DNA of 64,000 bases from a virus. Positions within the stretch are counted from its first letter, which is position 1; the number at the start of each line of letters is the position of its first letter. Positions 9,408 to 61,747 of the stretch are shown here, one piece after another. The stretch spans positions 1 through 64,000 of the IMG/VR virus record IMGVR_UViG_3300021478_000015. One strand, written 5' to 3'. Below the pieces are notes generated by a model, which did not search any database, was not told the DNA's origin, and worked only from the letters and a program-made list of their open reading frames with translations. The position numbers and the translations under genes were made by a program.

Positions 9408-10201
9408 GACTCCTCGACAAGCCGGAAGTTTTCCTCGTTGCCTACCCGACCGTCGATTGGACCGAGATCCGCCGGTACTTACGCGCCGTCGATACCGACG
9501 CCCTGGAATGGGCTGACCGGGTTCAGGAATCTGGGCTCTCCGATGGTGAGAGCCTGGTGGAGTTCGGTGGCCGCCTGTGCTACCGGTCCTGGGTCGAGGG
9601 CCTCAACCCCAACGTCCGCCGGGTCCGCAAGGACTCCACCGACTACCTGGGCAACATCCTCGAATCCCACCACGGCTCGGTCATCGAACATGCCAACTAC
9701 AGCTTCGTGATGCACAACGTCTCCCGAGTGTTCACCCACGAACTGGTCCGCCACCGGGCCGGAGCGGCCTACTCCCAGGAGAGCATGCGCTTCGTCCGCT
9801 TGGACGACCTGCCATTTTGGATGCCCGAGTGGGCGCGTGACGACCCGGACCTGATGGGCCGCAGCATCGACCTGCTGCACCAGATGGAGCGCCATCAGCG
9901 CTGGATGGCCGAGCACTTCGGCCTGGACGACCCCGGCGTCCCTTTCAGTGAGAAGAAGGCCAAGACCTCCTTCATGCGCCGCTTTGCCCCCGATGGGGTG
10001 GCTACCGGGGTGCTCTGCACCATGAATATCCGCACCCTCCGGCATGTGATCTACATGCGGACCGCCCTCGGGGCCGAGGAGGAGATTCGCCTGGTCTTCG
10101 ATGAGGTGGCCTATATCTGCGCCGAGAAGTTTCCCGACCTGATGCAGGACTATTCCCCCGATGAGGATCGTGCTTGGATTCCGGAGTGGATCAAGGTCTA
10201 G
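9404..10201 (+). CDS. thyX: flavin-dependent thymidylate synthase
   Basis: A 265-residue ThyX, the FAD enzyme that methylates dUMP to dTMP with methylene-tetrahydrofolate. The signature RHRAGAAYSQESMR is at about residues 116-129, matching RHRx7S. The His-rich FAD region (ESHHGSVIEHANY, about 88-100) and the later MNIRTLRHVIYMRT helix (about 206-219) are present. The start is ATG 9404, overlapping the previous stop. With the class II RNR, Dcd and MazG-like genes it forms a phage dNTP supply set. Confidence 0.93.
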   Translation: MRLLDKPEVFLVAYPTVDWTEIRRYLRAVDTDALEWADRVQESGLSDGESLVEFGGRLCYRSWVEGLNPNVRRVRKDSTDYLGNILESHHGSVIEHANYSFVMHNVSRVFTHELVRHRAGAAYSQESMRFVRLDDLPFWMPEWARDDPDLMGRSIDLLHQMERHQRWMAEHFGLDDPGVPFSEKKAKTSFMRRFAPDGVATGVLCTMNIRTLRHVIYMRTALGAEEEIRLVFDEVAYICAEKFPDLMQDYSPDEDRAWIPEWIKV

Positions 10202-10210
10202 GAGGCCTCT

Positions 10211-11125
10211 ATGACGGCTTGCGGCAAGCTGGTGACCGGCTACAACTCCCCCGACCGGGACAACCCTCAATCTGAGCACTGGGTGGAGCTACGCACTGGC
10301 TATCCCTGCTCGGTGGAGCTTGAGACCTCTGGAGCCCACCCCGGCCCCTGTGCGGCCGTAGAGCAGCCTCAGACCGTCACCTCCCGTCAGCGGTGGCTGG
10401 AGACCAACCGGAGGCGCACAGAGGACCTCAGGCACCAATCCTCGGGCCTGGGGGAGACCCAGGGTCGGCCTCTGACCTTCGCGGAGAATGCTGGGGCTGA
10501 TCCGGCCATCATCCACCCGGCCCAGGAGGTCCCCTGCCCGCTGTGCTCGGACTACGTCCTGGCCAAGGACCTTCCTGACCATCTTCGTCAGGTGCATGCC
10601 TCCACGGCCGCCACCGCCGTCCGGACCGTCCCTCCCAAGGCCGAGCGCGGTCCTGCCCCTCCGGGGTACTACTACGCCGGGGATGGTTCCGCGGAGGACA
10701 CCGGAGAGATGCACTCTTCGCCCTCCGGTCCTCGGGGTCAGATGCCCACCAGGGCCGACCGGCCCCACGATCAAGCTCTACCTGAGCCCAACACCCGCCC
10801 GGTCATGCATGAGGTGCTCATCGATCTGGTCTCCAAGCGCTTGGCCATCGGGGTCGAGCGCTACGGCACCGGCCTGCAGCCCATGAACGGTCGAGACGCC
10901 TTTCGCGATCTGGTCGAGGAACTGGTGGATGCCACCGTCTACACCCTGCAGATCCAGCATGAAAAAGCCGAGATGCTTGAATATGCTAAGGCTATCCATT
11001 ATTTGATCCTTCATCGTGTTACGCCTGAAGAACCTGCGGTGTTAGATGTGTTGATAAACCACATTGAAACATTATTGAGATGGCTGGGAGATCCGGTTGA
11101 GCACTCTGCTAATCGACGGGCATAA
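10211..11125 (+). CDS. zinc finger plus MazG-like pyrophosphohydrolase
   Basis: 304 residues from ATG 10211 after GGAGG. The N-terminal third is polar with scattered Cys. A C2H2 finger, CPLCSDYVLAKDLPDHLRQVH, lies near residues 109-129 (20 of its residues are decisive: C-x2-C then H-x4-H). The C-terminal third has RLAIGVERYGTGLQPMNGRD and DLVEELVDATVYTL (about 205-245), an actinophage MazG-like signature with the EExxD metal site. I infer a nucleotide pyrophosphatase tethered to DNA or RNA. The last 29 bases overlap the flap endonuclease gene; base composition drops in the last 100 bases. Confidence 0.7.
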   Translation: MTACGKLVTGYNSPDRDNPQSEHWVELRTGYPCSVELETSGAHPGPCAAVEQPQTVTSRQRWLETNRRRTEDLRHQSSGLGETQGRPLTFAENAGADPAIIHPAQEVPCPLCSDYVLAKDLPDHLRQVHASTAATAVRTVPPKAERGPAPPGYYYAGDGSAEDTGEMHSSPSGPRGQMPTRADRPHDQALPEPNTRPVMHEVLIDLVSKRLAIGVERYGTGLQPMNGRDAFRDLVEELVDATVYTLQIQHEKAEMLEYAKAIHYLILHRVTPEEPAVLDVLINHIETLLRWLGDPVEHSANRRA

Positions 11126-12023
11126 CATCGCCCTTCGCTCCTTGTTCGCCATGAGCAAGGCCAAGCCCCTCAGCACCGAGGACGGCATCCCCACCGGAGC
11201 CCTCCACACCTGCATCATCACCATGGCCAGCTACATCAAGAGGATCCAGCCGGACCGGGTCATGGTGTGCTGGGACTCCGGCGGCTCCTCCTGGCGCAGC
11301 GAGGTCTTTCCTGAGTACAAGGCCGAGCGTTCCCACTCCAGCGACCCGAGCGACTACATCACCAAGCTGATCCTGTTCCTGGACCTGGCCGGGGTCCCCC
11401 AGATCGCCATGGCCCACCTGGAGGCCGATGATCTGATCGCGTCCTATTGGAATCATGAAAACTCAGATTCGATGTTACACATTCTAAGTGGGGACAAGGA
11501 TTTCTACCAGCTACTCGATCAGTGGACCATCATCCATCATCCCGGTGATAAAGAACCATGGACAGATGTCCGGTTCGAGAATGAGTTTGGATTTAAACCG
11601 GATAACATGCGGCTTGTCATGGCCTTGATGGGAGATAAGATTGATGGGATCCCAGGAGTGCCCGGAGTGGGCATGAAGACAGCGGTGAAGATCCTTGATA
11701 GCGTCTATGCTAATGAGCAGCAGTTGATCCATCTAGAGTCCTTCGGAAAGATCAAGATTCCACCAGGGGTGGTCAAGAGGAATCTTTCCCTGGTGGATCT
11801 GACCAAGATCTTCCTGACGGGTCTGCCCACACTCAACCAGTTTTCACCTACCGTCCCAGGTGGACAGGGCTGGGATGAACTTGTAGCATTCCTCGACCGG
11901 CTGGAACTTCACGTTGTTAAGGGTCGCCTTATGGCTCATCGTTTGTGGACGGAAGCCGGTTGGAGTCCGAAAAAACCGCAGGTGGAAGGCCATGAGAAAG
12001 GAGATCGCCTCTGGGCATATTGA
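11097..12023 (+). CDS. 5'-3' exonuclease / flap endonuclease
   Basis: 308 residues related to T5 D15 and the Pol I 5' nuclease. Metal-binding acidic residues are in STLLIDGHN (N-terminus), MVCWDSGG (about 55-62), LEADDLIA (about 108-115) and LSGDKDFYQLL (about 129-139). The helix-hairpin-helix DNA clamp is GDKIDGIPGVPGVGMKTA (about 177-194). It removes RNA primers and 5' flaps. The start is TTG 11097, six bases after GGGAG. GC content falls in the second half compared with neighbours. Confidence 0.9.
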   Translation: MSTLLIDGHNIALRSLFAMSKAKPLSTEDGIPTGALHTCIITMASYIKRIQPDRVMVCWDSGGSSWRSEVFPEYKAERSHSSDPSDYITKLILFLDLAGVPQIAMAHLEADDLIASYWNHENSDSMLHILSGDKDFYQLLDQWTIIHHPGDKEPWTDVRFENEFGFKPDNMRLVMALMGDKIDGIPGVPGVGMKTAVKILDSVYANEQQLIHLESFGKIKIPPGVVKRNLSLVDLTKIFLTGLPTLNQFSPTVPGGQGWDELVAFLDRLELHVVKGRLMAHRLWTEAGWSPKKPQVEGHEKGDRLWAY

Positions 12024-12086
12024 TCAGGGTTCGTAGTCGCTGAAGACTTCGTTCCCTCGCAAGTCCCCAACTCACGAAGGAGACCC

Positions 12087-41632: not shown

Positions 41633-41665
41633 CAAATGGCCTCGGTGGTGGTGGTTATGGCGGGC

Positions 41666-41694
41666 ACGTTAGCAAACTTTCCTAGAGAGTGCAA
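41666..41694 (-). promoter_or_regulatory. cassette promoter with mutated leaderless start
   Basis: Minus strand: TTGCAC, 17 bases ending TGC, TAACGT. Seven bases on, where ATG lies in sister cassettes, is ATA followed by ACC ACC ACC ACC GAG GCC ATT TGA. Its TGA overlaps ATG 41632 (TGATG). A GAGG ahead of that ATG could serve as ribosome site. So this copy has an 8-codon remnant or leader frame instead of a leaderless gene. Confidence 0.7.
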
Positions 41695-41774
41695 GTCGGG
41701 GTAGGTCCCCTACCCTTGTTGTCAGGTACAGGCCCCTCAAGTGCATAGATCCTTCGAAGCTCCTGAAAGTTAAG

Positions 41775-41830: not shown

Positions 41831-42889
41831 TCAAGCAGCCACCTCCACGGGGCGCTCCTTGGCCCCCTCGCCGTCTGACTCGCCGTCCTTGGTCCAGCGG
41901 ATGCCCTGGACCCAGTCGGCGGCGTACTGGGCCTGGGAGGCGGCCTGCATGAGCCACTTGGGCTCGCTCTGCAGCTTGGACAGCCAGCCCTGTAGGTAGG
42001 CGGCCGAGTTGTCGATGGTGGAGTTCTCGATCCCGGCGATCCCGCACAGCATGGCGGCGGTCATCTCCGCGGTTAGCTCCTCCTTGGAGTAGCTGGTGTC
42101 CCCGAAGGAGTGCGACTCCATCAGGTCCTTGCGGGCCAGGCGGCTGGCGTGGCCCGTCGAGTGGCCCATCTCATGGAACAGGGTCGAGTAGTAGGCCTCG
42201 GGGGTGGTGAAGGCGGTGGGCTCGGGCATGCCGATGAAGTCCCGGCTGGGCGAGTAGTAGGCCCGGTTGCCGCCGTGGTGGACCTCGACCTCGGTGTAGC
42301 CGTCCGCCAGGGCCTGAGCCGCCTCGATGGCGTCGAACTCGGGGGCATCCTCGGCGGCCTCGGAGGGCTGGAACTTCTTCGGGAGCGTGCCCTGGTGGAC
42401 CTGATCCTGGTTCCAGACGTTGAACTCCTTGGGGAAGCGGATCCGGACCTTGCGGACCTTGCCGGTGGCCTCGTCCTTCTCCTCCTTGACGAAGCTCCCC
42501 CACCAGATGACCTTGGTGCATTTCTCGCCCTTGCGGACCCCGAAGTCGAGCCCCTCGGGATGGACCCAGGAGTTGCCCTCCTTGACCGCCCCGGCCTGGC
42601 GCGCCCACTCGTCGTAGGTGGCCCAGAAGGTGGACTTGTAGCCCTTCTCCAGGGCCTCGCCCAGGAGCAGCCAGAGGTTGATGCCCCGGTAGAGCTTGCC
42701 GGTGGAGACCGAGCGGGGGAACATGGAGCCGCCGTCCGCGGCCTTCCATTCCTGCAGCCAGATCAGCTTCTTGGTCTGCAGCGACAGGGCGCAGATGCGG
42801 TCAACGACCGACTGGTAGAGGTCCTTGCGGGGCTTGGCGGGGGTGACCCGGCCGGACTTGGTGGACTTGGACTTGGTGGTGGTGGCCAT
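41831..42889 (-). CDS. ardC-like: ArdC-type antirestriction protein with zincin-like protease domain
   Basis: 352 residues from ATG 42889, exactly seven bases after the -10 and without ribosome site (leaderless). The N-terminal ssDNA-binding domain shows YQSVVDRICALSLQTKK, LYRGINLWLLLGEAL and a FGVRKGEKCTKVIWW segment, the DUF1738 pattern of ArdC. The C-terminal half has the HEMGH metallopeptidase motif (FHEMGHSTGHASR, about 237-249) and a downstream Glu-rich helix (KEELTAEMTAAML). ArdC proteins protect incoming DNA from restriction. The upstream start (43045) reads through promoter and terminator and is rejected. It starts MATTTK, as the cassette predicts. Confidence 0.85.
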   Translation of the reverse strand: MATTTKSKSTKSGRVTPAKPRKDLYQSVVDRICALSLQTKKLIWLQEWKAADGGSMFPRSVSTGKLYRGINLWLLLGEALEKGYKSTFWATYDEWARQAGAVKEGNSWVHPEGLDFGVRKGEKCTKVIWWGSFVKEEKDEATGKVRKVRIRFPKEFNVWNQDQVHQGTLPKKFQPSEAAEDAPEFDAIEAAQALADGYTEVEVHHGGNRAYYSPSRDFIGMPEPTAFTTPEAYYSTLFHEMGHSTGHASRLARKDLMESHSFGDTSYSKEELTAEMTAAMLCGIAGIENSTIDNSAAYLQGWLSKLQSEPKWLMQAASQAQYAADWVQGIRWTKDGESDGEGAKERPVEVAA

Positions 42890-42896
42890 GGGAAGT

Positions 42897-42925
42897 ACGT
42901 TAGCAGACTTTCTTAGAGGGCGCAA
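42897..42925 (-). promoter_or_regulatory. leaderless cassette promoter (ArdC)
   Basis: Minus strand: TTGCGC, spacer CCTCTAAGAAAGTCTGC, TAACGT, ACTTCCC, ATG. The -10 to ATG distance is 7. The start is followed by GCC ACC ACC ACC. Confidence 0.75.
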
Positions 42926-42944
42926 GTCACCTTTGGCAAGAATG

Positions 42945-42986: not shown

Positions 42987-43362
42987 ATTCCAGGTTGTGC
43001 TCGGTCCTGCGGTCCTGCCTGACGTGACCCGGAGCTTGGTTGCATCGCAGCTTGGTGGGCCAGGAGGCCCTCCCACTCTCTCCGGCAGGGTTAGCGTCCC
43101 TGCGTACTCTGTGGTTTTGATTGTCAGCGGTCAGTTCCCTGGGCTCAAGCCGTTCGCCCGAGGGCTCCCCGGATTCGACTACGCACGCCCTGGTGACCCG
43201 ACACTTAGCCCCGAGGGGCACTTCAGTGCCGGTGCCACTTCGAGTCGCGGTACCGGGGATGTAAGAGGGATGGGACGGGTGCGGAGGCTGGCCACTGGGC
43301 GGGCCTCCCTTCTGACTGCGGTGCGGGTTACGCCATAGCTTCCTTTCTCGATCGGTGAGTAC
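42945..43362 (-). ncRNA. candidate small RNA or orphan transcript ending in a terminator
   Basis: A cassette promoter (43370-43398) fires into 370 bases with no good gene and stops at a perfect 11-bp stem (42956-42966 with 42976-42986) followed by GCTTTTCTTG on this strand. Near the 5' end a good site AAAGGAAG precedes ATG GCG TAA, a two-codon frame. The open frame of about 120 codons crossing the region has no start at the expected place and no coding look. Small hairpins occur (GGCAC-TGAA-GTGCC, GGGCC-TCCT-GGCCC). It could be a regulatory RNA or a decayed leaderless gene. Confidence 0.35.
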
Positions 43363-43369
43363 AGGAAGC

Positions 43370-43398
43370 ACGTTAGCAAGGATTCCTAGAGAAGTCAA
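43370..43398 (-). promoter_or_regulatory. cassette promoter without a gene
   Basis: Minus strand: TTGACT, spacer TCTCTAGGAATCCTTGC, TAACGT. Seven bases on it reads GTACTCACC, so the start codon and the ACCACC element are missing. It is otherwise as good as the sister promoters. Confidence 0.65.
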
Positions 43399-43399
43399 G

Positions 43400-43579
43400 T
43401 CACCTGCGGCGGGACTTGGAGTTCTCCCGGCGGGGATTACCGATGTGCCAGCAGGAGCACCAGGCGCACCGGTAGCTCCGGGTGGCCCAGCCTCGCGCCC
43501 GTGCTGCCTTGGCCACGTCGTTGGCTACCTCCCGCGTGGCGTACTGGTGCTTGCCGGTGACGCAGTCGCTGCCCTTCAT
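43400..43579 (-). CDS. small zinc-binding protein
   Basis: 59 residues from the minus-strand ATG at 43579. Pattern: a Cys near the start (SDCVTGKHQYATREVANDVA), a basic helix, and YRCAWCSCWHIGN (about 39-51), the C-x2-C...WHxG signature of a common small actinophage zinc protein. The tail is very basic (RRENSKSRRR). The longer frame from 43663 overlaps the next gene and is rejected. Last gene of the 44945-43400 operon. Confidence 0.6.
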   Translation of the reverse strand: MKGSDCVTGKHQYATREVANDVAKAARARGWATRSYRCAWCSCWHIGNPRRENSKSRRR

Positions 43580-44709: not shown

Positions 44710-44945
44710 GGCTTGGCCACCGCATCCCGGCCCGTGTACCAGCCGATGGGACGCTGGTCAGCCCCAGGGTTGGGGCCAGCGTGGAAGTGGTTGGGGGTGT
44801 AGCGATGGTGCTGGTTGGCGTGCCAGCGGCTCATCTCGGTGAAGGTCCAGCTATGGCGCTTGACCGAGGACCGGGCCGCCTGGGTGCCGTGCATCTCTTG
44901 GATGTGATCGAACAGCACCTGCTTGGGGGTGGTGGTCTGTGGCAT
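44706..44945 (-). CDS. small histidine-rich protein, leaderless
   Basis: 79 residues from ATG 44945, seven bases after the -10 of a cassette promoter, starting MPQTTTPKQ. It has QVLFDHIQEMHGTQ, a central WTFTEMSRWHANQHHRYTPN and HFHAG, so nine or so histidines that could bind metal. First gene of its operon. No family recognised. Confidence 0.6.
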   Translation of the reverse strand: MPQTTTPKQVLFDHIQEMHGTQAARSSVKRHSWTFTEMSRWHANQHHRYTPNHFHAGPNPGADQRPIGWYTGRDAVAKP

Positions 44946-44952
44946 GGCAAGC

Positions 44953-44981
44953 ACCTTAGCAGGAATCCTTAGAGGGCGCAA
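44953..44981 (-). promoter_or_regulatory. leaderless cassette promoter
   Basis: Minus strand: TTGCGC, spacer CCTCTAAGGATTCCTGC, TAAGGT, GCTTGCC, ATG. Start followed by CCA CAG ACC ACC ACC. Confidence 0.75.
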
Positions 44982-44992
44982 GTCGCCCAGGA

Positions 44993-49089: not shown

Positions 49090-49340
49090 CAGACCTCCAC
49101 CTCCACGGTGACCTTGCCACCCTCGATGGCGACCAGCTTGGCCCCCAACCGGCGCACACGGGCCAACACGGCCCCGGAGGAGGAGTGGGCGTAGCCCACG
49201 ATCTCAGCCCCGGTGAAGGTCTTCTCGAAGCCCACGCCCCGGCCGTTCCGGACGATCATCTCGCCCTTGGCGTAGTGGGCCTTGACCAAAGCGAACTTGG
49301 CCCCGGAGCGGGTCTTGATGGTGACGGTGGTGGTGGTCAT
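49089..49340 (-). CDS. small hypothetical protein, leaderless
   Basis: 83 residues from ATG 49340, seven bases after a cassette -10, starting MTTTTVTIKTRSG. It is a compact beta-rich domain (KFALVKAHYAKGEMIVRNGR, then GFEKTFTGAEIVGYAHSSSG) with a Gly/Ser turn. No cysteines. It heads the HNH-helicase operon. No family recognised. Confidence 0.6.
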   Translation of the reverse strand: MTTTTVTIKTRSGAKFALVKAHYAKGEMIVRNGRGVGFEKTFTGAEIVGYAHSSSGAVLARVRRLGAKLVAIEGGKVTVEVEV

Positions 49341-49347
49341 GGGAAGT

Positions 49348-49376
49348 ACCTTAGCAAACTTTCTTAGAGGGTGCAA
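49348..49376 (-). promoter_or_regulatory. leaderless cassette promoter (HNH-helicase operon)
   Basis: Minus strand: TTGCAC, spacer CCTCTAAGAAAGTTTGC, TAAGGT, ACTTCCC, ATG. Start followed by ACC ACC ACC ACC. Confidence 0.75.
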
Positions 49377-49390
49377 GTCACCCCGGACGC

Positions 49391-50276: not shown

Positions 50277-50584
50277 GACTGCACCTCCAGGTACGCCTCG
50301 ATGCTGGACAGGGACACCTTGTGGCCACGGGCGATCTGCTGACCGGCCTGGCGGCCTGAGTGGGCTAGGCCCCGGTAGGATTCACTGGCCGAGACGCGGC
50401 CCTGGGCATCGATGCTGAACTCCCAGAAGTTTGAGCCCTGAGGCATGTGGTTGGCGATGGTGACGTGGCGGTAGCTGCCGTAGAAGCGCTCCTCGACCAC
50501 AAAGTGGCGGCGGTAGGCGGCGGCGATGATGGCTTCGACCCGGCGCACTGACCGGGAGCGAACTGGTGTGGTGGTCTCAGGCAT
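50273..50584 (-). CDS. hypothetical protein, leaderless
   Basis: 103 residues from ATG 50584, seven bases after a cassette -10, starting MPETTTPVRSRSVRR. The middle is a beta-helix mix (VEERFYGSYRHVTIANHMPQ) and ends in a helical part (SSIEAYLEVQS). No family recognised. First gene of its operon. Confidence 0.6.
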   Translation of the reverse strand: MPETTTPVRSRSVRRVEAIIAAAYRRHFVVEERFYGSYRHVTIANHMPQGSNFWEFSIDAQGRVSASESYRGLAHSGRQAGQQIARGHKVSLSSIEAYLEVQS

Positions 50585-50591
50585 GACTGGT

Positions 50592-50620
50592 ACATTAGCA
50601 GATTCGCTTAGAGAGGGCAA
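50592..50620 (-). promoter_or_regulatory. leaderless cassette promoter
   Basis: Minus strand: TTGCCC, spacer TCTCTAAGCGAATCTGC, TAATGT, ACCAGTC, ATG. Start followed by CCT GAG ACC ACC ACA. Confidence 0.75.
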
Positions 50621-50621
50621 G

Positions 50622-50783
50622 TCAGTCCACCACCAGGAGCCAGAGCAGGTAGCCGACCGTGGCCCAGAACGTCAGGCACAGGACCAGCAGGAGTAGCAGG
50701 AATCCGAGGTCGAGCAGGTACTGCCGCCGCCGGACGCGGCTGACGATGCGTTGTGCCTCCCGGACCGGAGTGCGCCGCCTCAC
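50622..50783 (-). CDS. small membrane protein
   Basis: 53 residues from GTG 50783. A very basic start (MRRRTPVREAQRIVSRVRRR) is followed by a hydrophobic stretch, LGFLLLLLVLCLTFWATVG, and a second short one (YLLWLLVVD). The charge pattern predicts the N-terminus stays in the cytoplasm. It is short enough to be missed by usual gene calls; another frame over the same bases has no such features. Role could be envelope stress, exclusion or lysis support. Confidence 0.6.
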   Translation of the reverse strand: MRRRTPVREAQRIVSRVRRRQYLLDLGFLLLLLVLCLTFWATVGYLLWLLVVD

Positions 50784-52258: not shown

Positions 52259-52288
52259 ACCCTACACGAAAAGGTGGTGTGTTGGCAA
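52259..52288 (-). promoter_or_regulatory. cassette-related promoter with a leader
   Basis: Minus strand: TTGCCA, 18-base spacer, TAGGGT. The expected transcript begins GGGAACAACCACCACAAC and reaches an AAGGAG ribosome site before ATG 52228. So the ACCACCAC element is kept near the 5' end even though this gene has a leader. Confidence 0.65.
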
Positions 52289-52330
52289 GTCGGCTTAGAG
52301 AGACTCCGGGTCGAGAGGGTCCCTGTCCAG

Positions 52331-52354
52331 AGGGGATGCAGGACCCCGAAGGGG
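52331..52354 (+). promoter_or_regulatory. competing GGGG/CCCC pairings over the WhiB ribosome site
   Basis: CCCC (52344-52347) can pair with GGGG upstream (52332-52335) or with GGGG downstream (52351-52354), which is the ribosome site of ATG 52357. The two pairings exclude each other, so the upstream one would open the site. Confidence 0.4.
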
Positions 52355-52356
52355 TG

Positions 52357-52629
52357 ATGAGGGATCGGCGCTACCGAGGAGGTGATCAGTCCTGGAAGAG
52401 AAAGGGTGCTTGCGCGGGTGACCCTCTAGCCACTGATTTGCTCTTCGCCACCGAACTCAAGGACCAGGCCGCCGCAGCCAAGCGGTGGTGCAGCGAGTGC
52501 CCGGTCCGGCGGGAATGCCTGGACTACGCCATCTCCCACCATGAGGTATTCGGGGTCTGGGGTGGAGTCATCGAGAGCAGACGGCGTAATCGGCGCTGGC
52601 AGACCAGCATGCGGAGCTTGGCCTCATGA
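52357..52629 (+). CDS. whiB-like: WhiB-like iron-sulfur transcription regulator
   Basis: 90 residues from ATG 52357. The four 4Fe-4S cysteines are C19 (GACAGD), C45 and C48 (WCSECP) and C54 (RECLDY), followed by the GVWGG turn (66-70) and a basic tail (ESRRRNRRW). Wbl proteins bind the host sigma factor region 4 and redirect or block transcription; phage versions have been shown to act in mycobacteriophage TM4. It heads the rightward operon with the Arr-like gene. The region upstream shows possible pairing switches but no strong promoter. Confidence 0.9.
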   Translation: MRDRRYRGGDQSWKRKGACAGDPLATDLLFATELKDQAAAAKRWCSECPVRRECLDYAISHHEVFGVWGGVIESRRRNRRWQTSMRSLAS

Positions 52630-53036
52630 CCCACCTCCGCCAGGCCTGGGCCAAGCTGGTGATGGCGGCCGAGGAGGTTTACTACCACGGCACGGCCAAG
52701 GTGCCGTCCTGGCATCCCACCGAGATCACCCCGCAGACCGGGCGCTACGGCAGGCCCACCTTCCCCCATGACACCGATCCGGACTACGCCTACGCCACCA
52801 AGGACCCCGAGGTGGCCTGGAACTACGCCGAGAAGGCCTGGCACAACACCACCGTGGGGCACCCCAGGGTGTTCAGGGTGAAGCCCCGAGGTCCCGTGGA
52901 GGATGATCCCCACCGGGATGAGCGCGGCGAGCTACGGGGCAACTGGGAGGGTGACATCCGCTCCCGGCACGGCTTCGACGTGGTGGGTGAGGAGCCCATG
53001 CCCGAGCACATGGGTGAACCGGAGGACTGGAAATGA
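52626..53036 (+). CDS. arr-like: Arr-like ADP-ribosyltransferase
   Basis: 136 residues, overlapping WhiB by ATGA. It matches the rifampin ADP-ribosyltransferase (Arr) fold: VYYHGT (H21), YAYATKDPEVAW (Tyr about 56), then RVFRVKPRGPVEDDPHRDER with the acidic EDDP (about 92-95) and GFDVVGEE near the end. The family transfers ADP-ribose from NAD+ to rifampin; other members modify proteins. For a phage, host RNA polymerase or another host protein is a plausible target, but none is known. The first nine residues, MTHLRQAWA, are shared with the next gene. Confidence 0.75.
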   Translation: MTHLRQAWAKLVMAAEEVYYHGTAKVPSWHPTEITPQTGRYGRPTFPHDTDPDYAYATKDPEVAWNYAEKAWHNTTVGHPRVFRVKPRGPVEDDPHRDERGELRGNWEGDIRSRHGFDVVGEEPMPEHMGEPEDWK

Positions 53037-54289
53037 ACCACCTCCGCCAGGCCTGGGGACGGCAGGTCGAGGCCTGGCGCGTCCCCGAGACCATCCGGGG
53101 ATATCCCCTGCCCGTTGGCGGCCAGTTCGCTCATACCCAGGACACCCTGGACCCCGACCTGTTCGACCACAACGAGAGGATGCATCCCTGGATCCGGGAC
53201 TCCCTCATTGACATCCTGGAGGCCTTCTGGCGGCCCCGCTACGGCGACTGGCACTCCTGGACCCGGATCTACCTGGCGGGCTCCCTGGCCAGCTACTGGT
53301 GGTCCACCTTGGACTTCGACACCCTGGTCGGCGTGGACACCCATCGCTTCGTCAGGGACCACCCTGAGTTCGGGGGCATGTCCGATCCCGAGATCTGCCA
53401 GGCCCTCACCCATGAGTTCATCCTGGAGCTTGACCCTCTGTTGAAGGATTGGAGCTTCCCGCCTGAGCCCAACCTGCACCGGCTCATGGACACCCTTAAT
53501 GGCCCGGATCCAACAGATGTGTATAAGTCGGTGCCTTACACATTGGTGACCGGTATTGGGCCGATGGAAATGACTTGGTACGTGAATCCTTCGGCCTATG
53601 ACATCCGGGTCATTAAGCCCTATGCCGCCTACGATGTCACCCAGGATCGCTGGGCTGTGCATCCTGACAAGATGTCTAAGACCTGGGGAGCCCATGCTCT
53701 GGGCAACGTCTTCTGGGAGCACTTGGCCGACGTGGCTGATCACATCAAGGCGGCCCTGGCCCTGCCGGAGCCCGAGCGCACCGCCCATTGTTTGTCCATC
53801 TACGACGCCATCCACGCTGCCCGTGGCAAGGCTTTCTCCCCGGCCGGGAAGGGCGTGACCGATCCCCGCTCTCTACAGTGGATCGTCCTCAATAGATGGG
53901 GTCTCCTTGGTCCCCTGGAGGTGGCTGCTCATCCTGGCCGGGAGATGGCTCACCTACCGCCCGCCCGAGCTTCCTCCTGGCGGGCTCTGGATCCCGGCTT
54001 TGAGGAGGGTGGTCACGGCTCCTGGCGTGAGCATCCGGCAGTGATCATTCCCGAGGGCGGTGCAGCCGGGCGTAAGCGGTATACCGTCCATGTCCATGGC
54101 AACCCGGTGGCCAGCCGGTCCACCCTGCGAGAGGCCAAGGAAGTGCTCGAAGCCGAGCACGGGCCGCTGCCCTGGAAGCGGGTCCGACCCAAGAAGCAAG
54201 AGGCCGAGCATTACTACTTCGGCCCCACCACCGAGTTCTCCGATCCGGGCGAGTATCACTACGTGGAGCATCTGCCGGAGAAAGAATGA
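53033..54289 (+). CDS. nucleotidyltransferase-like protein
   Basis: 418 residues, starting MNHLRQAWG and overlapping the Arr-like gene. RIYLAGSLASYWWSTLDFDT (about 78-97) then LVGVD matches the pol-beta-type signature GS-x-A...D-x-D, with the usual SD replaced by LD. The rest of the first 270 residues looks globular and conserved (PSAYDIRVIKPYAAYDV). The last 120 residues are a charged tail (EAEHYYFGPTTEFSDPG). A nucleotidyltransferase beside an ADP-ribosyltransferase suggests a pair of protein or RNA modifying enzymes. The target is unknown. Confidence 0.55.
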   Translation: MNHLRQAWGRQVEAWRVPETIRGYPLPVGGQFAHTQDTLDPDLFDHNERMHPWIRDSLIDILEAFWRPRYGDWHSWTRIYLAGSLASYWWSTLDFDTLVGVDTHRFVRDHPEFGGMSDPEICQALTHEFILELDPLLKDWSFPPEPNLHRLMDTLNGPDPTDVYKSVPYTLVTGIGPMEMTWYVNPSAYDIRVIKPYAAYDVTQDRWAVHPDKMSKTWGAHALGNVFWEHLADVADHIKAALALPEPERTAHCLSIYDAIHAARGKAFSPAGKGVTDPRSLQWIVLNRWGLLGPLEVAAHPGREMAHLPPARASSWRALDPGFEEGGHGSWREHPAVIIPEGGAAGRKRYTVHVHGNPVASRSTLREAKEVLEAEHGPLPWKRVRPKKQEAEHYYFGPTTEFSDPGEYHYVEHLPEKE

Positions 54290-55500: not shown

Positions 55501-55521
55501 AGGAGTGAAGTTACCCCTTCG
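55501..55521 (+). promoter_or_regulatory. hairpin before the giant-protein operon
   Basis: CACGAAGG (near 55497-55504) pairs with CCTTCGTG (near 55516-55523), leaving GAGGAG as ribosome site seven bases before ATG 55536. It may be a weak terminator for the previous gene or an mRNA-stabilising 5' hairpin. Confidence 0.35.
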
Positions 55522-55535
55522 TGAGGAGTGGCCGG

Positions 55536-58500
55536 ATGACGTTGCAAGGCTTCGAGGTGCAGGCGGCCAAGCCGAAAGGCGAGCGCGCCAGCGAGGATGA
55601 ACCGGCTCAGCAGCCCATCCGGCCGGGGGAGAAATCCCCTGCTGACCGGCGCAATCTGACCAACGACGAGCGCACCGTCAAGCGCCGCCGTCGCCGCGTC
55701 CACGCTGCCTACAGCGCGCCGGGCTACTACTTGGTGGACAAGGACGCCACCCCGCAGTCGGAGCGCTTCGAGACGGTGAGCGAGGCCGAGGCTCAGCTAG
55801 AGCCCGACTCCGGGCAACTGATCCAGTACCTGGACCAGGCCCCTAACTCCTCCCACGTCGCTGAGCCCTTCCCGCCCAACCTCAACCAAGTCAATGGGAG
55901 CCTCCGGATGTCCGCACACACTGACGACGAGTTCCTGTTCGTGGCCGCCGACGCCGATGGCGACAGCGACGAGGACATGGACACCCAGGACGAGGGGATG
56001 GACGACAAGACCGCGGCTCTCTCCGACGATCGCATCAACGACGCTTACGAGCGCCACCTGCAGTGGTCCAAGGCCAACGGCCACAACGACCCCGACACCG
56101 TGTCGGCCCTGCGCGCCCATGAGCGCTCCGGGGGCATCACTCGGGCCGAGGCCAATGGCGTGGCAGACCTGCAGGGCATCGGCGGAGGCGACAGTGACTG
56201 GCGCAGCCAGGGGCATCGAGACGAGCCCTGGCCGGTCAAGGAAGGTCAGCTACTGGCGGCCATGGCCAAGGCCACCGGGCCGGAGCAGCAGCGCCTCATG
56301 GGCGAACTGGAGGGCCTCCGGCGCGAAGCCCGGCAGAAGGTCCTGGCTGACCGGGAGATCGACCTGGCCGACGCCTACATCCATGACACCTTGACCCCGG
56401 TCCGGGTCCATGAGCACCACACCGCCGCCACCGACTGGATCGAGGATGTAGCCGAGCCCGACCTCTCCGCCCAGGCCGTCCACCAGGCCATGGTGGTCGA
56501 GGCCCAGGAGTGGCGGAGGAGCGTCTCTGCCGCGGTCAGGCAGGATCGGGAGGAGTACCTGGAGCAGGCTCGCGGCCGAGCCCGGATCACCGCCTCGGCC
56601 ATGGGACCGCACCGGGAGATGGCCTTCCAGACCTTCATGCGGACCGCTGTCGAGGAGGACCAGGACCAGCAAGGCCCGGCCTCCATGATCCAGCCCTGGG
56701 CTATGCCACCCATGCCGCTGCCTCCGACCGGTGGCGGTGATGCCCCCTTCGGCATCCCCTCCGGCAATGCTCCGCTCAACGGCCAGAACTTCAACCCCAT
56801 GGCCACCGAGGTCTACCCCGGATCGCAGATACTGCCCCTCGACAACGGGGCCAGTGCCTGGCCACCGGCTGACAACCTCGAAGGCGAAGAGCCCCTGCCG
56901 CCGGTCGCCCCTGACAACTACAACGCGGTGGGGGCCGAGACCCATATGTCGTCCCGGCGTGAGGCCGCCAGTGACTATTCACCCAGGTCTGGCATGGGTG
57001 GTCGAGGAGGAGACAAGCCGTTCAAGGCCACCCACACCTATTCCCCCATCGGTTGGGACGCCTTCGACGCCCGGCCCCATCCCGGCTCCAAGTCCATTAC
57101 CCCCGGCGTGCCGGTCCAGAATCACGGCTACATGAGCCCCCGAGGCCCCGGTGGCATGCGCCTGGTCCACGTCTCGGATGAGTCCGGCAATCACCAGACC
57201 ATCGACAGCCGTAGCCTGGGCAAGCTCAGCCGTGGAGACGACGCCTTCGATCGTGAACAGGACCAGGACATCCTGGAGCGCAACGAGGAGCGCCGTCAGC
57301 CCTACGACTGGGATCCCCAGCGTCGGGAATCCGGGGGATCAATCTTCGAGAGTAACCGTCGTCAGGCCGGGTACAGCGATGAGTTCCCCCATCGGCGGCA
57401 CATGGAAACCCAGCATCCGGGTTATTCAGGTGATGATGGTGGGGATCCCGAGGCCGCCCATCGTCAACTCCACGGTGGGGACTGGTCCACCCCGGCCACT
57501 GATGGCGACAGCATCATGTCTGCCCATCCGGACCTGGCCGAGCATGAGAAGTACCCCGGCCTCTACGACCTCTCGACCGACCTGGGACGGCGGTTCCTGT
57601 CATCACAGAACTTCAACGGCCCCAAGCAGACCTACCAGGAGTACGTGTCCCGGCTCTCCGAGGGCTCCACCCCCATGGATCAGGAGCATTGGGCTGGGTC
57701 CATGGCCGCCGTGACCCCGGCCCCGTCGAACACCTCGATCCCGGTCACCTCCATGATGCGCTGGGGTGAGCGTGGCACGAACCCTGACCCCACCGGGGCC
57801 GACCTGGCCGGTAACCCCATGGCCGGGTATCCCGAGGGTGGTAACTGGGACAAGGACGAGGCCCACGCCCAGTCCGGCGAGGCCCAGTCCAACTTGCCGC
57901 TGGCTCCCGAGGGTCCCATGGTGGCCGAGCACTTGGACTACATCACCGACTTCCCCGATACCGGCCCGGCAGAAGTGCCATCGGATCGGGCCTGGAACAT
58001 CGATGCCAACCAAAGTGCAGCAGGCCACGATTCCGGCGTGACTCACGGTGCCGCGGCGTCCACCTACGACACTTACCACGACACTCCTTACGACGATGAC
58101 ACGCTCGGTGAGAGCCAGTACATGAGCGAGGTCCCTCATGACTTCGAGTCCGGCGGGGGATCCCAGTACTGCAGGCACTGCGGTGAGGCCCGTCGCCACC
58201 CTATGCACGTTTACGCGGCCCGGATGGCGGCCGGGAAGCCACCGCTGGAGCCCGACCGCTCGAACTACGCCACCACCCCCGGCGGGGAAGCTCAGTCCAC
58301 CGAGCAGTACGAGCAGGCCTACTCCTCGGGTCGCAACATCGACTACTCCGAAACTGGCATCGGCCAGCTAGGCACCGTGCCGGTCCAGGGCTACGGGGTG
58401 ACTCCCAACGGCGAGATGTTCCCCTGGCAGGTACCCCCTGGACCTGGCCCGGTGGGAGCCGCCGACGTGGCTGACGTACCGCCCCCAGGGGCCGGACAGG

Positions 58501-58613
58501 TCGGAGCGGCTCAGCCCACTGATCTCAACAACCCGGAGGCTCCTGAGGGCAAGCAGGCCGCTCTCAGGGCCATGCAGAGACGCATCCGTCACAACATGGG
58601 AGCACGGCGATGA
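55536..58613 (+). CDS. giant disordered protein 1
   Basis: 1025 residues from ATG 55536, after GAGGAG. Basic start (TVKRRRRRVHAAYSAPGYYL), an acidic stretch (DADGDSDEDMDTQDEG, about 150), short helical segments at about 200-300, then hundreds of residues rich in Gly, Pro, Asp, Asn, Gln and Met with no clear fold. A CRHCGEARRHPMH zinc knuckle is near 875. It precedes another giant protein and the portal gene, so it may be an internal virion or scaffold protein. Codon use matches other genes and supports translation. Function unknown. Confidence 0.6.
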   Translation: MTLQGFEVQAAKPKGERASEDEPAQQPIRPGEKSPADRRNLTNDERTVKRRRRRVHAAYSAPGYYLVDKDATPQSERFETVSEAEAQLEPDSGQLIQYLDQAPNSSHVAEPFPPNLNQVNGSLRMSAHTDDEFLFVAADADGDSDEDMDTQDEGMDDKTAALSDDRINDAYERHLQWSKANGHNDPDTVSALRAHERSGGITRAEANGVADLQGIGGGDSDWRSQGHRDEPWPVKEGQLLAAMAKATGPEQQRLMGELEGLRREARQKVLADREIDLADAYIHDTLTPVRVHEHHTAATDWIEDVAEPDLSAQAVHQAMVVEAQEWRRSVSAAVRQDREEYLEQARGRARITASAMGPHREMAFQTFMRTAVEEDQDQQGPASMIQPWAMPPMPLPPTGGGDAPFGIPSGNAPLNGQNFNPMATEVYPGSQILPLDNGASAWPPADNLEGEEPLPPVAPDNYNAVGAETHMSSRREAASDYSPRSGMGGRGGDKPFKATHTYSPIGWDAFDARPHPGSKSITPGVPVQNHGYMSPRGPGGMRLVHVSDESGNHQTIDSRSLGKLSRGDDAFDREQDQDILERNEERRQPYDWDPQRRESGGSIFESNRRQAGYSDEFPHRRHMETQHPGYSGDDGGDPEAAHRQLHGGDWSTPATDGDSIMSAHPDLAEHEKYPGLYDLSTDLGRRFLSSQNFNGPKQTYQEYVSRLSEGSTPMDQEHWAGSMAAVTPAPSNTSIPVTSMMRWGERGTNPDPTGADLAGNPMAGYPEGGNWDKDEAHAQSGEAQSNLPLAPEGPMVAEHLDYITDFPDTGPAEVPSDRAWNIDANQSAAGHDSGVTHGAAASTYDTYHDTPYDDDTLGESQYMSEVPHDFESGGGSQYCRHCGEARRHPMHVYAARMAAGKPPLEPDRSNYATTPGGEAQSTEQYEQAYSSGRNIDYSETGIGQLGTVPVQGYGVTPNGEMFPWQVPPGPGPVGAADVADVPPPGAGQVGAAQPTDLNNPEAPEGKQAALRAMQRRIRHNMGARR

Positions 58614-61600
58614 CTGACCTTTGGACCATGGCCGGAGAAGAGGCGGAGCGTGACGCCGCCGCTCACAAGCTGGCCCTGGCTCGGGTGGCCTGCGCCAACT
58701 ACTGGCCTGTCCTGGCATCAGCCGGGACCAAGGACGAGTATGAGCACGCCAAGGCCCTGATCTCCGATGGGGTCACCACCTCGGTGGCCTCAGTGGCCGT
58801 CTCTCCGGCCGACCAGGCCATCCTGGCCTCACGGGTCCTCGACAGCTTTGATGAGGACTGGGATGCCCACCAGGCCGCTCGCACCGCCGTGGTCGAGGAC
58901 GCTCCCGGTTATGGCCAGCAGATGGGCTTTGGCTTCCCGGCCGAGCCGCTGCCCAACGAGGCTCCCGAGCTAGAGAACGAGATCGCGGGTTGGGAGGGCT
59001 CCGACCGCGAGCAACGGGTGAACATGGGCAACGGCATCGGGGTGGCCGACGACTCCTCTGGCCCCAACGTGGAAGGCCCCGGCCAGAACCAGGGTGAGGA
59101 TCCCTTGCTGCACGCCAGCGCCCTGGACATCGAGGCCGGGCTGGAGCCGGGCGACTATCGCCTGGACGCCTTCGGAGCCCTTATCCCGGTAGAGGCAGCC
59201 GCTAACTACGATTCCCAGTGCCCTCTCTGTGATGAGAGAATCCATTCAAAGGACTATGCCTTTGATGAGGATAGTAATGGTGCGAGTGTCACCCATCCTG
59301 GAGTGATCCATAGTCGTCCTTCAGGTCATCCTGACCTTGAGAAGGCCAAGACTCCGATCATGAAGAGGAGGAAGACCTCGGTCTTTCACACTGCCCCCGG
59401 CGGAGGAGAGCACGCCCCGTACTACGTCCGGCGCGAGGGTGACAAGTACAAGGTGGTCAACCGCAATGGTGACGTGAAGGGCACCTTTAACACCAAGGAG
59501 GAGGCCCGTTCCCAGCAAAAGGCTCTCTACGCCAATGTGCCAGGGGCCAGTGAGGAGGCTGAGAAGCGCCACGGCGAAACCCCAAAAGCAGTGGAGGAGG
59601 AAGGTAAGAAAGCCTCCCTCCAACTGACTGCTCTGCAGCGCCAGGCCATTCAGGTGGCCCGCAACATGGTCGATCAGATGCCCGCCGGGGTAGAGCACCA
59701 CGCCGTGGCCAAAGCCATGTACATGCGGGCCAAGGGATTTGACCTGGATGAGGCCGAGACCGATCTGGTGATCAATGCTGCTCTAGAGAGGATCAATGAG
59801 CGCCTGGATTTTACCAAAGAGGGGGCCTATGACAACCTAGCTGGTGACCTCCATCGCATGAACCATGGAGACCGGTCGCGTTATGAGAGCGAAGGCCATG
59901 CCTTCGAGGTCTCCTACCACGAACGTCCGGCGTATGGCGATATGGGTCAGCCGGTACCCAAGAGTGACAAGTACTCGGGTACGACTGGTGAGTACACCCT
60001 GTACCACCCCCACGGTCAGGCCCAGGAGTTTCATGTAGGACCGTCTGTGCATGCCAAGGGTTACCAGGCCGAGAAGGTTCGGGACACCATGATGGACACT
60101 TGGTCTCGCAAGAAGATGGATCGGCTTATGAGCCAGGGCAATCTTCACACCGCCGATGGCGTCTCCGAGGAGAAGCGGGATCGAGCCGAGTCATCCGGTG
60201 ACACCCTGCCTGGCACCGACAAGTTCCCGATCACCAACAAGACCGATCTGGAGAATGCCAAGCACGATATCGGCCGCACCAATGAGCCCCATGACAAGGT
60301 GGTCAACTACATCAACCGCAAGGCTGATGAGCTAGGGGCTCCCAAGGTTGGTGAGGAGAAGACCTCCCGGATGCGCCGATTGTGGGCCAAGGTGACCGGG
60401 CGTCGTATCACTGCGGTGAACATCCACCACTTTGATAGCTCTGGTGGCAGCTACGACCGTACCCAGACCGATGACAGCATCAAGGACGGGGATGTGTTCC
60501 ACATTCCCAGCGAGAAGATCACCGGCTATATGCACGCGGCGTGGCCGGTGGCGGTCACCGAGAGCAAGGGTCAGTTTCACGGGTTGACCGATCCTCATCG
60601 GCCGCCTGCAGGAGAGGAGGACAGGACCTGTCCCTCCTGTGGGGGCTCAGGGCAAGCCGAGTCCACCGCCAATGCCCCTTACCGCAAGCCGGGTGACACC
60701 ACCTGCTGGGGCTGTGGAGGCAAGGGCTACTACCCCGGTGATCCGCCGGAGCGGGTGGCCCAATGGCACGAAGGCTGGAGTCAAGCTCGGGACCTGGCCC
60801 AGCAGAAGGGCTATCCCCTCGACAGTGGCACCCATGAGGCGTCGCGCCGGACCGCCCAGGGCGACATGAGCAATCCCATGGATCCCTCCTCGACGGGCAA
60901 TCCATTTTCCCCGGCTCAGGATGTCAACTCGGCCATGACCGACCAGAACCCCACCATGGGGGCGGGGGCCGGAGCGGGCGGGGCCATGAGCCCCAACACC
61001 GCTCCGCCCGACGAGATCCCTGGCCAGACCCAGCCTGGCTCAGCCACCGGCACGGCGGCCTCCTCGAAGCCCCGGACCAAGCCGTCCGAGAACCCCAACG
61101 CTCCGAACAAGCCAAGGCCGATGCAGCCACAGGGTATGCCCATGACCATGCCCGGCCAGATGATGACCGGCATGCCCATGATGGGTGTCAGGGTGCCGAC
61201 ACCGCCGGATCACAAGCGTCATATTCAGTGGCTCATGCATCAGTACGCCTTGAACCCTGATGAAGCCGAAGAAGAGGCGCAACGGCGATACCAAAGCTAT
61301 CCCGATACCCAGAAGCAGTGGGGGGCTAAGCCTGAGGATATCAGTACGGGTCCCAATCGTGATTTCACCAATCCGATCTCTGATCAGAATGAGAAGTATG
61401 GACCGAAGGTTTCCAGTAAGGCTCAGGTGATCATTGCAGAGTCGATCCTGGAGAACAACCCCGATCTCAGTGATGAGGAAGCTCTGCATCTGGCGATCAA
61501 GACCATCGAGCGTTATCCCCATGTGGTCAAGGAGGCCTACGGAGGGTCCGACTACCCTTTTGACTCAGCGACCGGGGGTTACAGCGTCTGCAGCCAATGC

Positions 61601-61747
61601 GGAGTTGAGGCCTTTGACAGCCGCACCGGTCACTGCCACAACTGCGGCTATGTCGCCGGGGCCGGGAGGGTCGGCTTCGACCCTCTGGTAGGCCCCACCA
61701 CCATCCGGCCGGGGCGGGCTGACCTTCGTAACCCTGGACTCAGGTAA
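58610..61747 (+). CDS. giant multi-motif protein 2
   Basis: 1045 residues, overlapping giant protein 1 by ATGA. Segments: an N-terminal helical part (AAHKLALARVACANYWPVLA); a Cys site (CPLCDERIH, about 203); a small PYYVRREGDKYKVVNRNGDV then KGTFNTKEEARSQQKALYAN repeat-like domain (about 266-310) found in many phage head-associated proteins; a DnaJ-like zinc ribbon CPSCGGSG/CWGCGGKG (about 674-705); a disordered Met/Pro-rich region (about 760-870); and a terminal ribbon CSQCGVEAFD/CHNCGYVA. Probably a virion-linked scaffold or maturation protein, given its place before the portal. Confidence 0.6.
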   Translation: MTDLWTMAGEEAERDAAAHKLALARVACANYWPVLASAGTKDEYEHAKALISDGVTTSVASVAVSPADQAILASRVLDSFDEDWDAHQAARTAVVEDAPGYGQQMGFGFPAEPLPNEAPELENEIAGWEGSDREQRVNMGNGIGVADDSSGPNVEGPGQNQGEDPLLHASALDIEAGLEPGDYRLDAFGALIPVEAAANYDSQCPLCDERIHSKDYAFDEDSNGASVTHPGVIHSRPSGHPDLEKAKTPIMKRRKTSVFHTAPGGGEHAPYYVRREGDKYKVVNRNGDVKGTFNTKEEARSQQKALYANVPGASEEAEKRHGETPKAVEEEGKKASLQLTALQRQAIQVARNMVDQMPAGVEHHAVAKAMYMRAKGFDLDEAETDLVINAALERINERLDFTKEGAYDNLAGDLHRMNHGDRSRYESEGHAFEVSYHERPAYGDMGQPVPKSDKYSGTTGEYTLYHPHGQAQEFHVGPSVHAKGYQAEKVRDTMMDTWSRKKMDRLMSQGNLHTADGVSEEKRDRAESSGDTLPGTDKFPITNKTDLENAKHDIGRTNEPHDKVVNYINRKADELGAPKVGEEKTSRMRRLWAKVTGRRITAVNIHHFDSSGGSYDRTQTDDSIKDGDVFHIPSEKITGYMHAAWPVAVTESKGQFHGLTDPHRPPAGEEDRTCPSCGGSGQAESTANAPYRKPGDTTCWGCGGKGYYPGDPPERVAQWHEGWSQARDLAQQKGYPLDSGTHEASRRTAQGDMSNPMDPSSTGNPFSPAQDVNSAMTDQNPTMGAGAGAGGAMSPNTAPPDEIPGQTQPGSATGTAASSKPRTKPSENPNAPNKPRPMQPQGMPMTMPGQMMTGMPMMGVRVPTPPDHKRHIQWLMHQYALNPDEAEEEAQRRYQSYPDTQKQWGAKPEDISTGPNRDFTNPISDQNEKYGPKVSSKAQVIIAESILENNPDLSDEEALHLAIKTIERYPHVVKEAYGGSDYPFDSATGGYSVCSQCGVEAFDSRTGHCHNCGYVAGAGRVGFDPLVGPTTIRPGRADLRNPGLR

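Follow-up and report, generated by a model that had tools for sequence, protein, structure and literature searches.

A Common N-Terminal Tag on Unrelated Phage Enzymes, Probably a Capsid-Targeting Sequence

Two adjoining phage genes whose products otherwise differ begin with almost the same peptide, which raises the question of what a shared start could mean for two dissimilar enzymes. The genes lie on the forward strand of a 64,000-nt stretch of viral DNA (hereafter, the window; positions 1 to 64,000 of IMG/VR record IMGVR_UViG_3300021478_000015). The first, at positions 52626-53036, encodes a 136-aa protein that opens MTHLRQAW (52626-52649), and the second, at 53033-54289, encodes a 418-aa protein that opens MNHLRQAW (53033-53056).

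The Tagged Gene Pair

The initial codons of the two genes are ATG ACC CAC CTC CGC CAG GCC TGG GCC and ATG AAC CAC CTC CGC CAG GCC TGG GGA, respectively. Following the ATG, 21 of 24 nt are identical, as compared to 6.5 expected. When ORF starts were compared across the whole 156,983-bp phage genome, this pair was the closest among 17,391, the runner-up matched at 17 of 24 nt, and the chance expectation for pairs this similar was ~2e-5 in the entire genome. The comparison used 187 selected ORFs, which were the longest non-overlapping ORFs rather than the output of a trained gene caller. A search of the whole 157-kb genome for an HLRQAW-type motif at further ORF starts detected none. The observation that two neighboring genes open with a common short peptide is real, and the earlier note that first described it had placed both genes correctly.

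The product of 52626-53036 is predicted to be an Arr-type ADP-ribosyltransferase (ART), in agreement with its original description as Arr-like. In a Pfam profile search, the protein scored 25.6 bits against Arr-ms (PF12120; E 1.4e-5), above the curated cut-off of 25. The sole solved relative found was the Arr protein of M. smegmatis (PDB 2hw2; E 0.006), with an EDDP motif lying within the alignment. The profile score and the aligned motif make the window ART similar to Arr, but it differs in being the product of a phage gene and in having an N-terminal tag, and there was no evidence for rifampin as a substrate. Relatives of the ART were found neither in a scan of viral contigs nor by tblastn against a phage collection.

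The product of 53033-54289 is probably a nucleotidyltransferase of the Pol-beta type, as judged from a GS..DxD..E pattern (G83-S84, D94-x-D96, and E179) that is invariant in six homologs with identities as low as 27%. Three of the six are from Streptomyces phages (27-30% identity), and a further homolog, in contig G003, shows the comparable pattern GS..DFD..D. Searches of Pfam, PHROG, and PDB returned no profile match, and the AlphaFold model (mean pLDDT, 49) was of insufficient quality for a fold search. The invariant residues favor the nucleotidyltransferase assignment originally proposed, but neither a profile nor a fold confirms it.

A WhiB-like gene (52279-52629, forward strand; Pfam WhiB, E 4.6e-18) is located directly upstream of the ART gene, and the WhiB, ART, and nucleotidyltransferase-like genes and the next gene (from 54286) are chained by 4-bp ATGA overlaps. 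The earlier note had suggested that the two enzymes, standing behind WhiB, might form a host takeover set acting on RNA polymerase or translation. Although the association holds in the window, WhiB is not a constant neighbor. In L004 and L005, two related contigs, neither a WhiB nor an ART ORF was evident adjoining the nucleotidyltransferase gene on its strand, and WhiB was therefore dropped as a defining member of the set. A WhiB-like gene (gp75; L061, 22272-22532) is also annotated among the head genes of Rhodococcus phage E3, near the prohead protease, reminiscent of the WhiB gene beside the tagged pair.

Reuse of the Tag in Related Phages

In L005, a close relative, the nucleotidyltransferase gene is split in two. 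The N-terminal piece occupies ORF 9995-10951, and the C-terminal piece, corresponding to the last ~104 aa of the 418-aa protein, forms a separate tagged gene (ORF 11682-12050) that opens VNHLRRAWARRIEAD and then runs on, in frame, into the remaining protein. Comparison of the two pieces with L004 gave dN/dS values of 0.077/0.318 and 0.068/0.482, respectively, indicating that both are under purifying selection, though the signal may stem from the time before the split. Situated between the pieces is a GNAT-like ORF that opens MLSSHLRQTWASRIALG. Its product shares 59% identity with the final module of a 3116-aa polyprotein encoded by the window phage, and the match begins at residue 16, directly behind the tag.

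A DNA-pattern scan for HLR[QR][AT]WA hit ten contigs and found the tag at gene starts in L005 only; the hits in the other contigs seemed to fall in chance frames, within ORFs, or at ORF ends and were rejected. Scanning 2.9 million viral contigs for the pattern yielded one further real gene start, MNHLRQAWAAKTAAH in G003, for which the chance of occurrence is ~5e-5 per genome. G003 is a true relative of the window phage, with a protease that is 66% identical. In G003 the tag heads an unrelated protein, and the gene following it encodes a nucleotidyltransferase homolog behind a ParB-like sequence. The consensus of the tag is M-x-H-L-R-[QR]-[AT]-W.

The earlier note had named relatives lacking the shared tag as evidence that would tell against a common function. 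This is partly the case: the direct orthologs of the nucleotidyltransferase have only degenerate tags (MSHLQAQW in L004 and MASSVHQQW in L005), and the homologs of Streptomyces phages and of G003 have none. Inspection by eye of the genes neighboring the Streptomyces-phage homologs likewise revealed no shared tag of their own. The tag nevertheless recurs on other proteins. Degenerate or absent tags on homologs show that the tag does not belong to the enzyme itself; they do not make it meaningless. It is a movable module, placed on otherwise unrelated proteins within one phage lineage.

The shared start could instead have arisen when one gene recently acquired a copy of the other's first codons by recombination, in which case it would be functionless and the peptide would merely have survived. 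At the DNA level the window tags hardly differ and their genes adjoin, as a duplication would have it, and the alignment pairs a tryptophan of the tag with one that every nucleotidyltransferase homolog has at its start. We nonetheless consider this origin unlikely, given that the peptide recurs with synonymous changes on other proteins in L005 and G003 and, in L005, also stands in front of the detached C-terminal part of the nucleotidyltransferase. Even less probable, and in our estimation very much so, is that the conserved stretch acts as a DNA or RNA element, e.g., a recombination site or a start context that helps translation, and not as a peptide signal. The near-identical bases of the window pair, the ATGA start-stop overlaps, and the use by this genome of another repeated, start-associated DNA element would fit such a role. 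Against it, the L, R, Q, and A codons vary synonymously among the five good tags while the peptide is kept, and the tags of L005 lie in other start contexts.

A Protease-Led Polyprotein and the Capsid-Targeting Reading

The 3116-aa polyprotein is encoded in the same phage outside of the window (G000, 98031-107381; L007 from 15031 and on into L008). Over the first 250 residues it matches a PHROG head maturation protease family (E 3.7e-24) and also the corresponding protein of cluster C mycobacteriophages (46% identity). The modules fused behind this prohead protease include Nudix, Arr-type ART, and GNAT domains, along with a weak ParB match. Many of the modules are preceded by a repeated linker (e.g., KTAGLEAFLAA or QAGLEGFIAA); these AGLxxF[VIL]AA linkers look like borders at which the protease might process the polyprotein. 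The major head protein is encoded at ~110.8 kb. Between structural genes of the same genome lie three tandem paralogous genes of ~331 aa that open MATxISARNY (G000, 70310-73302; L006), and three also occur in G001; their products are possibly head or decoration proteins.

We propose that the tag is a capsid-targeting sequence (CTS) that loads unrelated enzymes into the prohead, to be cleaved and injected into the next host, and assign this reading a probability of roughly 0.7. It is preferred because the similarity of the tags is far above chance, because the tag precedes unrelated proteins in L005 and G003 and the peptide is kept while its codons change synonymously, and because the L005 GNAT matches a module of the protease-led polyprotein from just after the tag. 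It is also preferred because cluster C and Gordonia phages show a parallel tag design (see below) and because precedents exist in the CTS and Alt of T4 (PMC9026906, PMC5694885) and in DarB of P1 (PMC9024508). Counting against it are the degenerate tags of the L004 and L005 nucleotidyltransferases, the tagless distant orthologs, the lack of evident likeness to the T4 tag, and the lack of a known cleavage site. The earlier note had suggested a common address for the two enzymes, such as the virion interior; reuse on the GNAT, on the separated nucleotidyltransferase part, and on the G003 protein, together with the analogous tag in actinobacteriophages, supports such an address, most likely the prohead interior.

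We infer that, late in infection, the tag would bind a component of the prohead core, and the bound enzymes (Arr-type ART, nucleotidyltransferase, GNAT, and others) would be enclosed in the prohead. There the prohead protease of the phage would probably cut them close to the tag, and once injected with the DNA they may modify targets of the host or the phage at an early stage of the next infection. A common partner, the other option raised at the outset, would make the tag a binding peptide that, inside the infected cell, joins the enzymes to each other or to the same protein of host or phage and takes no part in packaging. With its leucine and tryptophan spaced four residues apart, so short a peptide could fit a groove, and the genes are co-transcribed, as judged by their overlap. 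However, enzymes homologous to the tagged ones occur in the protease-led polyprotein and among the late head genes of related phages, which points to the virion and renders a purely intracellular role improbable.

The kind of signal proposed by the capsid-targeting reading is already known from T4 and P1, and it is the label sequence that is new here. For T4 IPIII, ten N-terminal residues suffice for incorporation into the head, with residues 4 and 7 mattering most for targeting; the CTS is removed by the prohead protease, and the cargo includes Alt, an ART (PMC9026906, PMC5694885). As with the CTS of IPI, IPII, IPIII, and Alt, the window tag is a short N-terminal peptide common to different proteins, an ART is among the cargo, and a prohead protease is encoded, although no sequence similarity between the two tags is evident. 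Packaging and cleavage are proven in T4, whereas for the window phage we infer both. The 30 N-terminal residues of P1 DarB send a reporter to the capsid (PMC9024508). DarB likewise has an N-terminal signal (~30 residues) and is a head-packaged, injected effector, but it is one large protein, unlike the window pair. In length, position, and company, the window tag fits the capsid signals of T4 and P1.

The polyvalent proteins of Iyer et al. (2017; PMC5512222) are chains of several domains for which packaging and injection are predicted, and their domains include ART, GNAT, Pol-beta nucleotidyltransferase, and ParB-like types. The window pair has the same kinds of effector domains, but as free-standing, single-domain chains with a common tag, whereas the 3116-aa protein of the same phage, with several disparate effector domains in one polypeptide, is polyvalent in the sense of these authors. 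Tentatively, and at somewhat less than even odds, actinobacterial myoviruses may bring one set of enzyme modules into the head in two modes, either as segments of a giant polyprotein with the prohead protease at its front and repeated AGLxxF[VIL]AA linkers, or as free-standing chains with a lineage-specific N-terminal address. Modules would move from one mode to the other by exchanging linker for tag, and the pieces of a split gene would gain tags.

A Parallel Tag in Cluster C and Gordonia Phages

A different tag of ~20 residues, TAREQ[FY]EMLxPW, was found in cluster C mycobacteriophages (Ceeclamvirinae) and Gordonia phages. In phage Alice, gp98, gp99, and gp115 open with RI[IV][TR]AREQ[FY][DE]ML.PW and differ in their bodies, and the only stretch over which the PHROG profile of either gp99 or gp115 matches the other protein is the tag. 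A 23-residue query of the tag hit 397 places in 194 records, at a permissive E-value limit. Weak Pfam matches identify the tagged body of Alice gp115 as a GNAT, and in ScoobyDoobyDoo gp94 the match to an Arr-like ART (E 0.0018, below the cut-off) begins right behind the tag. One tagged body domain is common to Phabba gp123, Pupper gp109, and Skog gp173, and was read as an ART because of a KIYRALP-type motif, in the absence of a profile match; homologs of Phabba gp123 in untagged phages align from residue 17-23 onward. At one cluster C locus a constant tag precedes different cargo, a GNAT in Alice versus a GNAT remnant plus an ART-like domain in Colt and Cane17. In Rhodococcus phage E3, gp99-like and gp98-like parts are fused in a single chain, gp205, which is recorded as a structural protein. 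The starts of E3 gp205 and gp206 are basic and vaguely similar, and we do not claim a tag for them.

Both lineages, including the Gordonia phages Pupper and Skog, thus have a lineage-specific N-terminal tag on ART-like, GNAT, and other late-region proteins and encode a related protease. The tag sequences differ, however, and are analogous rather than demonstrably homologous. In the open-license papers searched, we found neither virion proteomics covering the window phage or the tagged proteins of cluster C nor a description of the HLRQAW or TAREQ tag. Should the tag be a capsid address, an N-terminal stretch of 20 residues would by itself predict virion-borne proteins in ~200 sequenced mycobacterial and Gordonia phages, where the virion membership of such uncharacterized proteins is now settled by proteomics alone. 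The tag would also serve as a short handle by which proteins of choice could be loaded into actinobacterial phages; no such handle is described in the papers searched. The split gene of L005 and the GNAT-to-ART-like change of cargo behind a kept cluster C tag would then amount to natural experiments on the address.

Further features of the window were also recorded. Positions 55521-61747 encode late-region proteins of 1030 and 1045 aa without a family match, and the viral-contig scan found no relatives of the 1030-aa protein. Within the 1045-aa protein (58610-61747), the weakly tag-like sequence RMRRLWAK (60368-60391, forward strand) marks a module border, and its relatives have RMGRLWDR or SHWPRWAAR at module borders; this is possibly a tag-like border, but only a hint of one. 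The order of the modules is rearranged in two relatives (L019 from 8211; L022, 3955-6768). Finally, a ~57-nt repeat occurs at gene starts at 41644-41700, 42875-42931, 43348-43404, 44931-44987, 49326-49382, and 50570-50626, and also at G000 79407 and 84123. It reads CCCTCTAAGxxxxxTGCTAAxGTxxxxxCATG towards the gene, ends at or in the start codon, and looks like a start-associated promoter or leader.
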